Source: Caulobacter sp. S45 (GTDB lineage: Bacteria; Pseudomonadota; Alphaproteobacteria; Caulobacterales; Caulobacteraceae). Taken from it: a stretch of DNA of 64,000 nucleotides. A program made the position numbers and the translations under genes. The notes beneath the pieces are model-generated. The model searched no databases and was not told where the DNA came from. It saw nothing but the letters and a program-made list of their open reading frames with translations. Below, piece by piece: positions 22,914-27,977 of this stretch (positions are counted from its first letter, which is position 1; every line of letters begins with the position of its first letter). The stretch spans positions 2,003,539-2,067,538 of the forward strand of contig NZ_LMUL01000014.1 in NCBI RefSeq assembly GCF_009765965.1, given 5' to 3'.

Positions 22914-23861
22914 ATGAGGCTCGCCCTCGCCCGCGATGATGGCCTTCACATGGATGTTCAGCCCGACGCGGCTCCCGCCCGCCCGACTACGGATCGCCGC
23001 CCCCGCGTTTCGTTCGAGTTCTTCCCGCCCAAGACGGCCGAGCTGGAAACCCAGCTCTGGCGGGCGGTGGACCGGCTGGCCCCGCTCGGCCCGACCTTCG
23101 TCTCGGTGACCTACGGCGCCGGCGGCTCCACCCGCGAGCGGACGCTCGGCGTGCTGAAACGGATGCTGGCCGAGACCCCGTTGCGTCCCGCCGCCCACCT
23201 GACCTGCGTCGCCGCCGCCCGCGAGGAAGTCGACCAGGTGGTGCGCGATTACTGGGAGGCGGGCGTGCGCCACATCGTGGCCCTGCGCGGCGATCCGCCA
23301 GGCCAGCTCGGCGGCGCCTACGAGCCGGGTCCGGAATGCTATCGCAACGCCGGCGAGCTGACCGCCGCCATCGCCCGCATCGCACCCTTCGAGATCAGCG
23401 TCGCCGCCTATCCGGAGAAGCACCCCGAAAGCCCCTCGATCTTACAGGACATCGACGTGCTGAAGGCCAAGGTCGACGCCGGCGCCACCCGCGCCATCAC
23501 CCAGTTCTTCCTCGATACCGAGGCCTTCTTCCGGTTCGTAGACCGGGTGCGCAAGGCCGGGATCAGCATCCCCATCGTGCCGGGCGTAATGCCGGTGACC
23601 AGCGTCAAGGGGCTGAAGCGCATGGCCGAGATCAGCCATGCCCGCATCCCCGAACGCGTGGCCAAGGTGTTCGACGGCCTGGACGCCGACCCCGAGACCC
23701 GCAGCCTGGTCTCCGCCACCATGGCCAGCGAACTGTGCAAGGAGCTGGTCTCCAATGGCTTTTCCGAGCTGCACTTCTACACCCTGAACCGGGCCGAGCT
23801 GGTCTATGCGGTGTGCCGGATGCTGGGCGTCACGGCCCCGCCGGTGGAGGCCGCGGCATGA
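22914..23861 (+). CDS. metF: Methylenetetrahydrofolate reductase
   Basis: FAD-dependent reduction of 5,10-methylene-THF to 5-methyl-THF, the methyl donor for MetH. The protein has 315 aa and shows [15 protein letters not shown] near residue 31, [26 protein letters not shown] and [16 protein letters not shown], all family blocks. The start is uncertain: the ATG at 22914 has no ribosome-binding site and touches the palindrome, whereas ATG 22950 is closer to the conserved core. Its stop overlaps the next gene by ATGA. Confidence 0.95.
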
Positions 23862-24919
23862 ACCGGGCCGATCGCATCACGGTCCTGAGGGCCGCCGCTC
23901 GCTCACGTATCCTGATCCTGGACGGGGCCGCCGGCTCGATGATCCAGCAGCACAAGCTGTCGGAGGCCGACTTCCGCGGCGAGCGGTTCAAGGATCATCC
24001 CAGCCCGCTCCAAGGCGACAACGACCTGCTGTGCGTGACCCGCCCCGACGTGATCGCCGGCCTGCACGACGCCTATCTGGCGGCGGGCGCGGATATCATC
24101 TCCACCAACACCTTCAACTCCACCTGGATCAGCCAGGCCGACTATGGGCTGGAGGCGGCGGTCAAGGACATCAACGCCTGCGCCGCCAAGCTGGCCCGCA
24201 CCGCCGCCGACGCCTGGAGCGCCAAAACCCCGGACAAGCCGCGCTATGTCGCCGGCTGTATCGGACCGCTGAACCGCACCCTGTCGATCTCGCCCGACGT
24301 CAACGATCCCTCCAAGCGGGCGGTGACCTTCGACGAGGTCTACGACGCCTATCGCGAGCAGGCCCTGGTGTTGCACGCCGGGGGCGTCGACATGTTCCTG
24401 GTCGAGACCATCTTCGACACGCTGAACGCCAAGGCCGCGATCAAGGCGATCCTGGACTTGGAGGACGACGGGCTGGAGCCGCTGCCGATCTGGGTCTCGG
24501 GCACCATCACCGACCGCTCGGGCCGCACCCTGTCGGGCCAGACAGTGGAGGCGTTCTGGAACTCGATCCGCCACGCCCGGCCGCTGGCGGTAGGCCTGAA
24601 TTGCGCGCTCGGCGCCGAACTGATGCGGCCCCACGTCGCCGAGCTGTCGCGGATCGCCGATTGCATGGTCTCGGCCTACCCCAATGCGGGCCTGCCCAAC
24701 GCCTTCGGCGAATACGAGGAAGAGCCGCACGAGACCGCTTGCCAGCTTGAGGAATGGGCGACCAGCGGCCTGGTCAACATCCTGGGCGGCTGCTGCGGCA
24801 CCACCCCGGACCACATCCGCCACATCGCCGAAAGCGTCGCGGGCAAACCGCCCCGCCGCGTGCCGACCCGCCCGACCGCGATGCGCCTGTCGGGGCTGGA
24901 ACCGTTCGAGATGGCATGA
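23858..24919 (+). CDS. metH: Homocysteine S-methyltransferase module of split methionine synthase
   Basis: A 353-aa protein equal to the N-terminal homocysteine-binding module of cobalamin-dependent MetH. It contains [28 protein letters not shown], and the zinc site formed by GLNCALGA and [10 protein letters not shown]. It ends shortly after the zinc site, so the folate, B12 and activation modules are on the separate protein at 25329-27977. It is translationally coupled by ATGA overlaps to metF upstream and to the 138-aa ORF downstream. Confidence 0.93.
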
Positions 24920-25332
24920 CCGACTTGGCCGGCCGTCCCAATCCCCGGCTCGTCCTCTCCCAGGTGGAGGTGGAAGCCCTACGCACCTTGCGGACCCGGC
25001 TGAACAAGCCGGCGATAAGCGACGCCGCATCCGCCACCCTGGGCCGCGTCTTCTACCAGCTGATCGCTCGCGCCGATCTCGCGCCGGCCGGCGATCCAGT
25101 GGCTATAGCCCGGCTGGACGCCACGATCGGCCCCACGCCGGCTGCGGCCGTGGCGGCGACACGCGACGCCGGCATGGCGGAGCTGAACCTGTTGCTGGCG
25201 GTGCTGCACCCGCGTCTGACGACCAACCCCGCTGCGTGGCGGGCGCTGCAGAGCGCCGGCGCGCCCCAGGCCGTGATCTCGCGCCGCCTTCAACTCGCGG
25301 GTCGCGAGCCAAATCCGAGCGCCCATTCATGA
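24916..25332 (+). CDS. Unknown 138-aa protein encoded between the two metH halves
   Basis: A small, mostly helical, cysteine-free protein with no family that I recognise. Segments include [34 protein letters not shown] and [17 protein letters not shown]. No signal peptide or membrane helix is evident. Its ATG lies in the ATGA at the stop of the metH N-terminal gene, and its TGA lies in the ATGA that starts the metH C-terminal gene. That double coupling implies it is translated in proportion to both MetH parts. A structural or assembly role in methionine synthase is only an inference. Confidence 0.75.
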
Positions 25333-27977
25333 CCACAGCGCCCCGCCCCGTCTTCGTCAACATCGGCGAGCGCACCAACGTCACCGGATCGGCCAAGTTC
25401 AGGAAGCTGGTCGCGGCCGGCGACTATGGCGCGGCCCTGGTGGTCGCGCGCCAGCAGGTCGAGGCCGGCGCCCAGGTCATCGACGTCAACATGGACGAGG
25501 GCCTGCTCGACAGCCAGGCGGCCATGACCACCTTCCTCAACCTGATCGCCGGCGAGCCCGACATCGCGCGGGTGCCGATCATGGTCGACAGCTCCAAGTG
25601 GGAGGTGATCGAGGCCGGGCTGAAGTGCGTGCAGGGTCGCTGCATCGTCAACTCCATCAGCCTGAAGGAGGGCGAAGAGAAGTTCATCCGCCAGGCCAGG
25701 ACCTGCCTGCGCTACGGCGCGGCGGTGGTGGTGATGGCCTTCGACGAACAGGGCCAGGCCGACGTCGCCGACCGCAAGGTGGAGATCTGCACCCGCGCTT
25801 ACCGCATCCTGACCGAACAGGTGGGCTTCCCGCCCGAGGACATCATCTTCGACCCCAATATCTTCGCGGTGGCGACCGGGATCGAGGAGCACAACGGCTA
25901 CGCGCTCGACTTCATCGAGGGCACGCGCCGCATCCGCGAGAGCCTGCCCCACGCCCATGTCTCGGGCGGGGTGTCCAACGTCTCGTTCAGCTTCCGGGGC
26001 AACGAGCCGGTGCGTCGGGCCATGCACGCGGTGTTCCTCTATCACGCCATCGCCGCCGGCATGGACATGGGTATCGTCAACGCCGGCGACCTGCCGGTCT
26101 ATTCCGAGATCGACCCGGAACTGCGCGACGCGGTGGAGGACGTGATCCTCAACCGCCGGCCGGACTCCACCGAGCGGCTGGTCGACCTCGCCCCCAAGTA
26201 CAAGGGCGACAAGGGCGCAGTGCGCGTGGTCGACCTGAAATGGCGCGACCAGCCGGTGGCCGCGCGCCTGGCCCACGCCCTGGTCCACGGCGTCTCGGAA
26301 TTCATCGTCGAGGACACCGAGGCGGCGCGTCTGACCGTGGAGCGCCCGCTGCACGTCATCGAAGGCCCGCTGATGGACGGGATGAACGTGGTCGGCGACC
26401 TGTTCGGCGCGGGCAAGATGTTCCTGCCCCAGGTGGTCAAGTCGGCCCGGGTGATGAAGCAGGCCGTGGGCTATCTGATGCCCTTCATGGAGGCCGAGAA
26501 GGCCGGCCAGCCCCGCTCGTTCGCCGGCAAGATCCTGCTCGCCACGGTCAAGGGCGACGTGCACGACATCGGCAAGTCCATCGTCGGCGTCGTGCTCCAG
26601 TGCAACAATTACGAGGTGATCGACCTGGGCGTGATGGTGCCCGCCGACCGCATCCTGGACGCCGCCGTCGAGCAGAAGGTGGACGTGGTCGGGCTATCGG
26701 GCCTGATCACCCCGTCGCTGGACGAGATGGTGTTCGTGGCCAGCGAGATGGAGCGACGCGGCATCGACCTGCCGCTGCTGATCGGCGGGGCCACCACCAG
26801 CCGCACCCATACGGCGGTGAAGATCGAGCCGGCCTTCTCGGGCTCCACCATCTATGTCGCCGACGCCAGCCGGGGCGTGGGCGTGGTCTCCGGCCTGCTG
26901 TCGCCGACCGAAGGGGTCAAGGCGCGCGCGGCTGTGCGCGAGGAATACGTCAAGATCCGCGAGCAGTTCGCCAAGGGGCGCGAGCAGAAGGCCCGTGTCA
27001 GCCTGACCCAGGCGCGCGAGAACCGTTATCGGACCGACTTCGCAGCCCACCCGCCCAAGGCGCCGAGCTTCCTCGGCACGCGCGCCTTCAACAACTACGA
27101 CCTCGCCTCGCTGGCGCGGGTGATCGACTGGACGCCCTTCTTCGCCAGCTGGGAGCTGGTCGGCCGCTACCCCGCCATCTTCGAGGACGACGTGGTCGGC
27201 GAAGCCGCCAAGTCGCTGTTCGCCGACGCCCGTCCCATGCTCGACCGCATCGTCCAAGAGGGCCTGTTCCAGGCCTCGGGCGTGGTTGGGTTCTGGCCGG
27301 CCAACAGCGAGAACGACGACATCGTTCTGTATACGGATGAAACCCGCACCACCGAGCTGACGCGCCTGCACACCCTGCGCCAGCAGATGCAGAAGAGCGA
27401 CGGCAAGCCCAACCTGGCGCTATCGGACTTCATCGCTCCGGTCGGCGGGCCGCCGGACTATATCGGCGCCTTCGCGGTCACCGCCGGCCATGGCGAGACC
27501 AAGCTGTCGCTGGGCTACAAGCAGGCCGGCGACGACTATTCCGCCATCCTGTCCACAGCCCTGGCCGACCGTCTGGCCGAGGCGTTCGCCGAGGCCTTGC
27601 ATGCGCGGGTGCGCCACGAACTCTGGGGCTACGCGCCGAACGAGGCCCTGCCGCTGGAAGACCTGCTGGCGGAGAAGTACCAAGGCATCCGTCCCGCCCC
27701 CGGCTATCCGGCCCAGCCCGACCATACCGAGAAGGCCACTCTGTTTCGACTGCTCGACGCGGAGGCCGCCACCGGGATGGTGCTGACCGAGAGCTTCGCC
27801 ATGTTCCCTGGCGCCTCGGTCTCGGGCCTGTATTTCGCCCACCCCGAGGCCCACTATTTCGGCGTCGGCAAGATCGACCGAGACCAGACCAGCGACTACG
27901 CCCGCCGCAAGGGCTGGGAGATCAAGACCGCCGAACGCTGGCTCTCCCCGATCCTCAACTACGAGCCGTCGCGGTAA
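25329..27977 (+). CDS. metH: Methionine synthase: folate-, cobalamin-binding and activation modules
   Basis: An 882-aa protein corresponding to MetH modules 2-4. It starts with the pterin-binding domain ([27 protein letters not shown]). The four-helix cap and B12 domain follow, with the base-off motif [11 protein letters not shown] and later [14 protein letters not shown] and [17 protein letters not shown]. The C-terminal reactivation domain ends with [15 protein letters not shown] and [18 protein letters not shown]. Together with the 23858-24919 product it reconstitutes a full MetH. The start ATG is in the ATGA overlap with the unknown ORF. Confidence 0.95.

Follow-up and report, generated by a model that had tools for sequence, protein, structure and literature searches.

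A family-restricted small protein gene in a variable gene slot between the two halves of split metH in Caulobacter sp. S45 and its relatives

The B12-dependent methionine synthase MetH is encoded in two parts in Burkholderia phytofirmans (BPHYT_RS02310/RS02305; PMC7311316) and in Sphingomonas koreensis, whose metH is described as "split into two parts" (PMC7857596), and a legend in a Caulobacter paper gives MetH as CCNA_02221, then CCNA_02222 (PMC6538847); a two-part MetH is therefore already published. For Phaeobacter inhibens, the accessible text of one paper describes a three-part methionine synthase in which DUF1638 and RamA-like partners are implicated by genetics (PMC5764234). Here we analyzed a stretch of 64,000 nucleotides (nt) from Caulobacter sp. 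S45 (contig NZ_LMUL01000014.1; hereafter the window), in which an open reading frame (ORF) of 138 amino acids (aa), referred to as ORF138, lies between the two halves of metH. The domain division is the same as in Burkholderia, where an S-methyltransferase protein is accompanied by a pterin/B12/reactivation protein (PMC7311316). However, the accessible parts of the reports on two-part MetH (PMC7311316, PMC7857596, PMC6538847) do not mention an intervening gene, whereas in the window the halves flank a third, unrelated gene that is coupled to both. The Phaeobacter system likewise combines a divided B12 methionine synthase with additional proteins, but, according to the accessible text, it is split otherwise and has other accessory families; in our locus the C-terminal protein retains the reactivation domain, and ORF138 belongs to no Pfam family. 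Neither a gene between the halves of split metH nor a slot of this kind was mentioned in the literature within reach, which mostly excludes subscription papers. We consider it fairly probable that ORF138 is a family-restricted orphan in a one-way gene-capture slot of the split-metH operon, and that it is old and has been repeatedly lost.

Four genes are arranged head to tail, with metF as the first gene of the run:

22914..23861, + strand: metF, methylenetetrahydrofolate reductase, 315 aa (PF02219, E 1.2e-91; TIGR00676 above cut-off)
23858..24919, + strand: metH-N, homocysteine S-methyltransferase module of split MetH, 353 aa (PF02574, E 1.6e-97; NF007024)
24916..25332, + strand: ORF138, family-restricted protein predicted to be all-helical, 138 aa (homologues, substitution rates, structure model, ATGA overlaps)
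25329..27977, + strand: metH-C, pterin-binding/B12-cap/B12-binding/reactivation module, 882 aa (PF00809, PF02607, PF02310, PF02965; NF007024)

All three junctions are 4-nt ATGA overlaps, by which the metF stop overlaps the metH-N start and ORF138 lies at -4/-4 to the metH halves. The initial annotation, made from the sequence alone, had described a MetH split into proteins of 353 and 882 aa with a 138-aa frame joined to both by ATGA overlaps, and the coordinates, domains and measured overlaps agree with it. The homocysteine (Hcy) domain PF02574 is the sole Pfam domain of MetH-N above cut-off, and the pterin, cap, B12 and reactivation domains are all found in MetH-C, as in a two-part MetH. Since MetH-N covers positions 6-354 and MetH-C positions 358-1233 of the methionine synthase model NF007024 (1234 positions), the break lies at the boundary of the Hcy and folate (Fol) modules and almost nothing has been lost. 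The motifs NCALG, GGCCGTT and DVHDIG, which we take to be catalytic, are readable in the two proteins. No Rfam element was found in window positions 20000-30000, and no sigma-70-like or terminator-like site in positions 22400-28200.

We surveyed the interval between the two halves in 149 genomes of one bacterial family (its named relatives belong to Caulobacteraceae/Caulobacterales). MetH-N was present in 143 and metH-C in 142 of them; in 139 genomes the two halves share a contig and a strand, and every one of these genomes has a split metH with adjacent halves, with -7 to 4871 nt between their aligned ends (lengths refer to alignment ends, not gene ends). Using tblastn with representatives of eleven families, including ORF138, we found at least one typed occupant in 69 of the 139 intervals. 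The occupants are ATP-grasp (32 intervals), DUF4259 (30), ORF138 (13), RidA (10), PNPOx (10), DUF6882 (9), amine oxidase (8), methyltransferase (7), VapB-like (6), PIN (6) and a 251-aa lipoprotein-like gene (2). These names are taken from Pfam, except "VapB-like" and "lipoprotein-like", which are our own labels for genes with no Pfam match. All typed placements are on the metH strand and none is reversed. The typing covered 109 intervals; none of the typed genes would fit into the other 30, of which 25 measure less than 30 nt, four measure 36 nt and one measures 139 nt. Among the intervals with no typed gene, 31 measure at most 60 nt and 34 measure 61-240 nt, while five longer ones hold untyped content; the 34 spacers of 61-240 nt with no recognised occupant (e.g. 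L193, L195) could represent the remains of former occupants or have a regulatory role. We relied on tblastn for the typing because two other approaches were unreliable: a first clustering of the interval ORFs was swamped by high-GC (guanine plus cytosine) shadow ORFs and was discarded, and a filter based on GC by codon position misses genes. The slot extends up to 4.9 kb, is hypervariable and often contains rows of several genes, such as amine oxidase-RidA-ATP-grasp-DUF4259 (e.g. L153, L162, L191, L192). Its ATP-grasp gene, which is D-Ala-D-Ala-ligase-like (e.g. L191; genomes of g22 and g14), is usually followed by DUF4259.

ORF138 occupies 13 of the 139 split metH loci. As the other 126 do without it, it is not generally required for split MetH. 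This bears directly on the idea that the split makes ORF138 indispensable to MetH as a docking or assembly subunit. Its position, the double ATGA overlap and its linkage to metH speak for such a subunit, but with all 139 genomes split and only 13 carrying the gene, the idea is contradicted as a general rule in the family. Moreover, the accessible text on two-part MetH elsewhere (PMC7311316, PMC7857596) names no third protein, and we regard an obligatory subunit as very unlikely.

The initial annotation had further proposed that the double coupling suggests a stoichiometric partner of the split enzyme. This conclusion did not survive comparison with unrelated genes of the same slot. Four intervals each contain an unrelated gene that by itself contacts both metH halves in like manner, namely DUF4259 in G002 (-4/-1), DUF6882 in G065 (-4/-1) and G131 (-4/0), and the methyltransferase in G111 (-4/-4); the ATP-grasp gene comes near to it in G123 (+3/-4) and G125 (+7/-4). 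For 24 called genes the metH-C start is no more than 60 nt downstream; in 16 cases the distance is -4 to +2, and four of these 16 genes come from ORF138 carriers in which another gene comes after ORF138. The overlap thus goes with the site, and double ATGA coupling fails as a sign of a stoichiometric partner. Confinement to the slot was compared in the same way. In a sample of 89 genomes, DUF4259 was inside the metH interval at 12 of 12 places, and so were 13 of 13 ATP-grasp matches with at least 60% identity. The slot copies of ATP-grasp are 60-100% identical to the query, whereas the matches located elsewhere are 33-43% identical and were taken as ordinary Ddl genes. The PNPOx-like occupant is in the slot at 7 of 19 places and elsewhere at 12. 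The slot DUF4259 and ATP-grasp genes share with ORF138 the slot, the metH strand and similar overlaps, and DUF4259 is also about the size of ORF138 and equally confined, with no sequence relation to it. An identity of ORF138 with DUF4259 (PF14078) was rejected: neither ORF138 nor 33 family members matched it in Pfam, and hhalign against one slot DUF4259 protein gave a probability of 0.1%. Because DUF4259 and ATP-grasp are equally confined, confinement is weak evidence of partnership; it arises for unrelated genes too, presumably by inheritance. Coupling and confinement therefore look like properties of the site rather than signs of a partner.

We further focused on ORF138 itself. Genome searches and a scan of GTDB contigs together yielded 34 distinct homologues. 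The ratio of nonsynonymous to synonymous substitution rates (dN/dS) of ORF138 is 0.08-0.37, being below 0.4 in all 16 related pairs, which come from overlapping sets and are not independent. Purifying selection, whose absence would have told against the partner proposed in the initial annotation, is thus present. The ratio exceeds that of MetH-N in 11 of the 16 pairs and that of MetH-C in all 13 comparable pairs, so ORF138 is constrained, though less than MetH. The homologues and the dN/dS values together indicate, beyond chance, that ORF138 is a real small protein gene. An alignment of 33 rows contains 13 invariant positions (L14, E18, E20, R23, R26, R28, L42, R52, L97, R123, R124, G129 and E131), nine of which are charged, and 8 further columns are nearly invariant. 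The AlphaFold2 model is all-helical, with a mean predicted local distance difference test (pLDDT) score of 89.3 and a predicted template modelling (pTM) score of 0.83, in line with the helical protein first described. The lack of cysteine, noted at the same time, is true of the window ORF138 and is not a family trait, since several homologues contain cysteine.

The distribution of ORF138 is narrow. It was found in 13 of the 149 family genomes of the first sample and in 36 of 390 family genomes, or 26 of the 311 good-quality ones, distributed over 8 of 22 genera. The GTDB contig scan, which relied on a single peptide pattern taken from the ORF138 C-terminal motif, gave 27 named loci, including those of Caulobacter sp. 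S45, Caulobacter sp. CCUG 60055 and C. ginsengisoli DSM 18695. In the first search, 63 of the 76 matching family genomes had only weak matches (E 5.6e-5 to 0.1), which were taken as chance; 17 of these were inspected (loci L014-L030), and metH halves were found at none. A profile search gave two weak matches beside 13 good ones (a second place in G015, E 0.0012; G051, E 0.0099), and they were also taken as chance. Outside the family, nothing credible was found in 385 genomes of the class besides the window's own genome: five matches with E 3e-4 to 5e-3 are all partial, two of them with internal stops, and were judged chance from the table alone. Three matches outside the family among 200 genomes of the order (E 0.004-0.008, partial) were judged likewise. 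There was no match in viral contigs and plasmids, and nothing significant among PDB sequences (best E 0.55). Divergent copies in other metH intervals were sought by hmmsearch --max in stop-to-stop frames (40 codons or longer) from 100 metH intervals; only the four known copies were recovered, the next match having E 1.6.

Within this distribution, ORF138 keeps to metH in the loci examined. MetH-N is upstream in 57 of 57 loci examined, and metH-C is also visible downstream in 53. The first 13 loci all lie between metH-N and metH-C; in the 44 further loci metH-N is upstream in all and metH-C is in view in 40, the available stretch showing none in the remaining four. Some of the 57 loci are duplicates recorded under two labels (34 distinct proteins), and the set covers the neighbourhoods of 30 of the 36 matches from the 390-genome sample. 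Relatives of ORF138 were thus not found away from metH. The co-occurrence with split metH that the initial annotation led one to expect holds in one direction: every ORF138 locus examined is at metH, but few split loci contain ORF138. With start positions chosen automatically, 26 of 34 distinct ORF138 copies start -4 to +7 nt from the end of metH-N, and 21 of 32 readable copies end -4 to +7 nt from the metH-C start; 18 of 32 copies are in close contact with both halves. ORF138 keeps the slot while other genes adjoin it, including VapB-like/PIN, DUF6882-like, RidA-like and PNPOx-like genes, and no constant travelling companion was seen across the ORF138 loci inspected. The metF/metH-N junction is variable too: in four of the ORF138 carriers inspected it contains an inserted gene of 286-291 aa (L222:2030-2940, L229:1590-2475, L235:2005-2930 and L218:1585-2460), whose product resembles, by eye from an HxHxDH-type motif, a secreted metallo-beta-lactamase-fold protein.

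The sequence and structure searches did not place ORF138 in any family, as had been stated from the first. Searches against Pfam, NCBIfam, PHROGs and PADLOC returned 0 families at E up to 1, and the 33 family members gave no Pfam family either (best E 0.037). A PDB fold search with the model gave no convincing match, the best Foldseek E being 2.9. In a second-look fold comparison, HEPN toxins accounted for four of the five best rows (8xdj_A, Z 6.1, root-mean-square deviation 3.4 over 91 residues). Together with the VapB-like/PIN pairs that share this slot in 6 of the 139 genomes, this could mean that the slot has captured a HEPN-like element, such as a toxin or an antitoxin. However, a Z of about 6 is usual for any helical bundle, and the best Foldseek E is 2.9. 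HEPN proteins carry a conserved R-x4-6-H motif, and ORF138 has no histidine in its 13 invariant or its 8 nearly invariant columns, although a HEPN relative lacking the motif is conceivable. Moreover, a constant companion gene is lacking in the loci inspected, and three members had no match in PADLOC. We regard a toxin, antitoxin or other HEPN-like identity as very unlikely.

A further explanation is that ORF138 is an optional accessory subunit. Its conserved charged residues would attach it to the Hcy module, to the Fol/B12 module or to the seam where they meet, and in some lineages it would modulate how MetH is assembled, loaded with B12 or reactivated. This explanation overlaps with the capture-slot reading, which leaves room for it. 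The location at metH in 57 of 57 loci, the purifying selection, the 13 invariant columns with their nine charged residues and the co-inheritance with MetH are all consistent with such a subunit. In addition, 12 of the 13 carriers have no metE match, so MetH may be their main synthase (MesD and others were not sought). The sole metE-bearing carrier in the sample is the window's own genome. On the other side stand the 126 of 139 split loci that have no ORF138, and the direct comparisons of carriers and non-carriers. The difference in metE (1 of 13 carriers versus 35 of 136 others) is not significant (Fisher p 0.19). The MetH-N tails are alike in the two groups: four residues follow GLEP in 12 of 13 carriers and 69 of 96 non-carriers, and five follow in 1 and 19, respectively, with 8 unread. 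Carriers and non-carriers are not cleanly told apart by any MetH column; with kinship ignored, the best frequency difference is 0.76 in MetH-N and 0.63 in MetH-C, and at MetH-N 141, an example of the largest difference, Met occurs in 27 of 32 carriers versus Thr in 22 of 25 non-carriers, which is not a clean separation. ORF138 distances correlate with those of MetH-N (r 0.57), MetH-C (0.51) and MetF (0.45), each reached by 0 of 500 permutations, and MetH-N and MetF distances correlate at 0.84. The correlation with MetH is barely above that with MetF; the values therefore show ORF138 being inherited along with the operon and reveal no particular link to MetH. We regard the optional accessory as possible, though clearly short of probable.

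In a MetH-N tree of 57 rows (32 with ORF138 and 25 without, the latter being the best-scoring MetH-N loci only), the presence of ORF138 is scattered and needs at least six changes, four of them forced by well-supported branches. The pattern fits early entry followed by repeated loss. In the capture-slot reading, ORF138 would have entered the family early, been inherited with the operon and been lost repeatedly, and its product would be made together with the methionine operon. The translation of metH-C would depend on the preceding gene through termination-reinitiation at ATGA, GTGA or TTGA. If so, slot genes would have to be on the sense strand and would end up overlapping metH-C, and the overlap would serve metH-C rather than the stoichiometry of the occupant.

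Several points weigh against this reading. The dependence of metH-C is deduced from the overlaps alone, and the GC-based gene calls listed 14 minus-strand ORFs among 99, which we took for shadow ORFs. ORF138 occurs in as many as 8 of 22 genera and was never seen outside the slot, unlike the PNPOx-like occupant (12 of 19 places outside). The tree would also allow repeated gain by transfer. ORF138 lies 157-959 nt from metH-N in 8 of 34 copies and 103-1598 nt from metH-C in 11 of 32 readable ones, and its own coupling is therefore inconstant. Finally, the nine charged residues among the 13 invariant ones look like a selected, putative binding site, which fits a specific partner. In a bolder version, the slot would be a modular accessory bay, in which ORF138 and ATP-grasp plus DUF4259 are alternative lineage-specific MetH auxiliaries translated in step, and ORF138 an undescribed MetH partner; this we think rather unlikely. 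As to function, that ORF138 is an unrelated passenger has about an even chance, and that it is an optional accessory of MetH or of one-carbon metabolism is a good deal less probable. The gene, its position and its coupling, as first annotated, therefore stand; the step from coupling to partner does not, and a partner is possible.

Position and overlap are often read as partnership, and the control within the same family here is a caution for annotation by guilt by association. If the slot is indeed a sense-only capture site held by translational coupling, it would be a natural system for the entry of genes into operons with no breakage. If ORF138 is a MetH accessory, B12-dependent methionine synthesis would gain a new component, and this in a family in which 113 of the 149 sampled genomes have no metE match.

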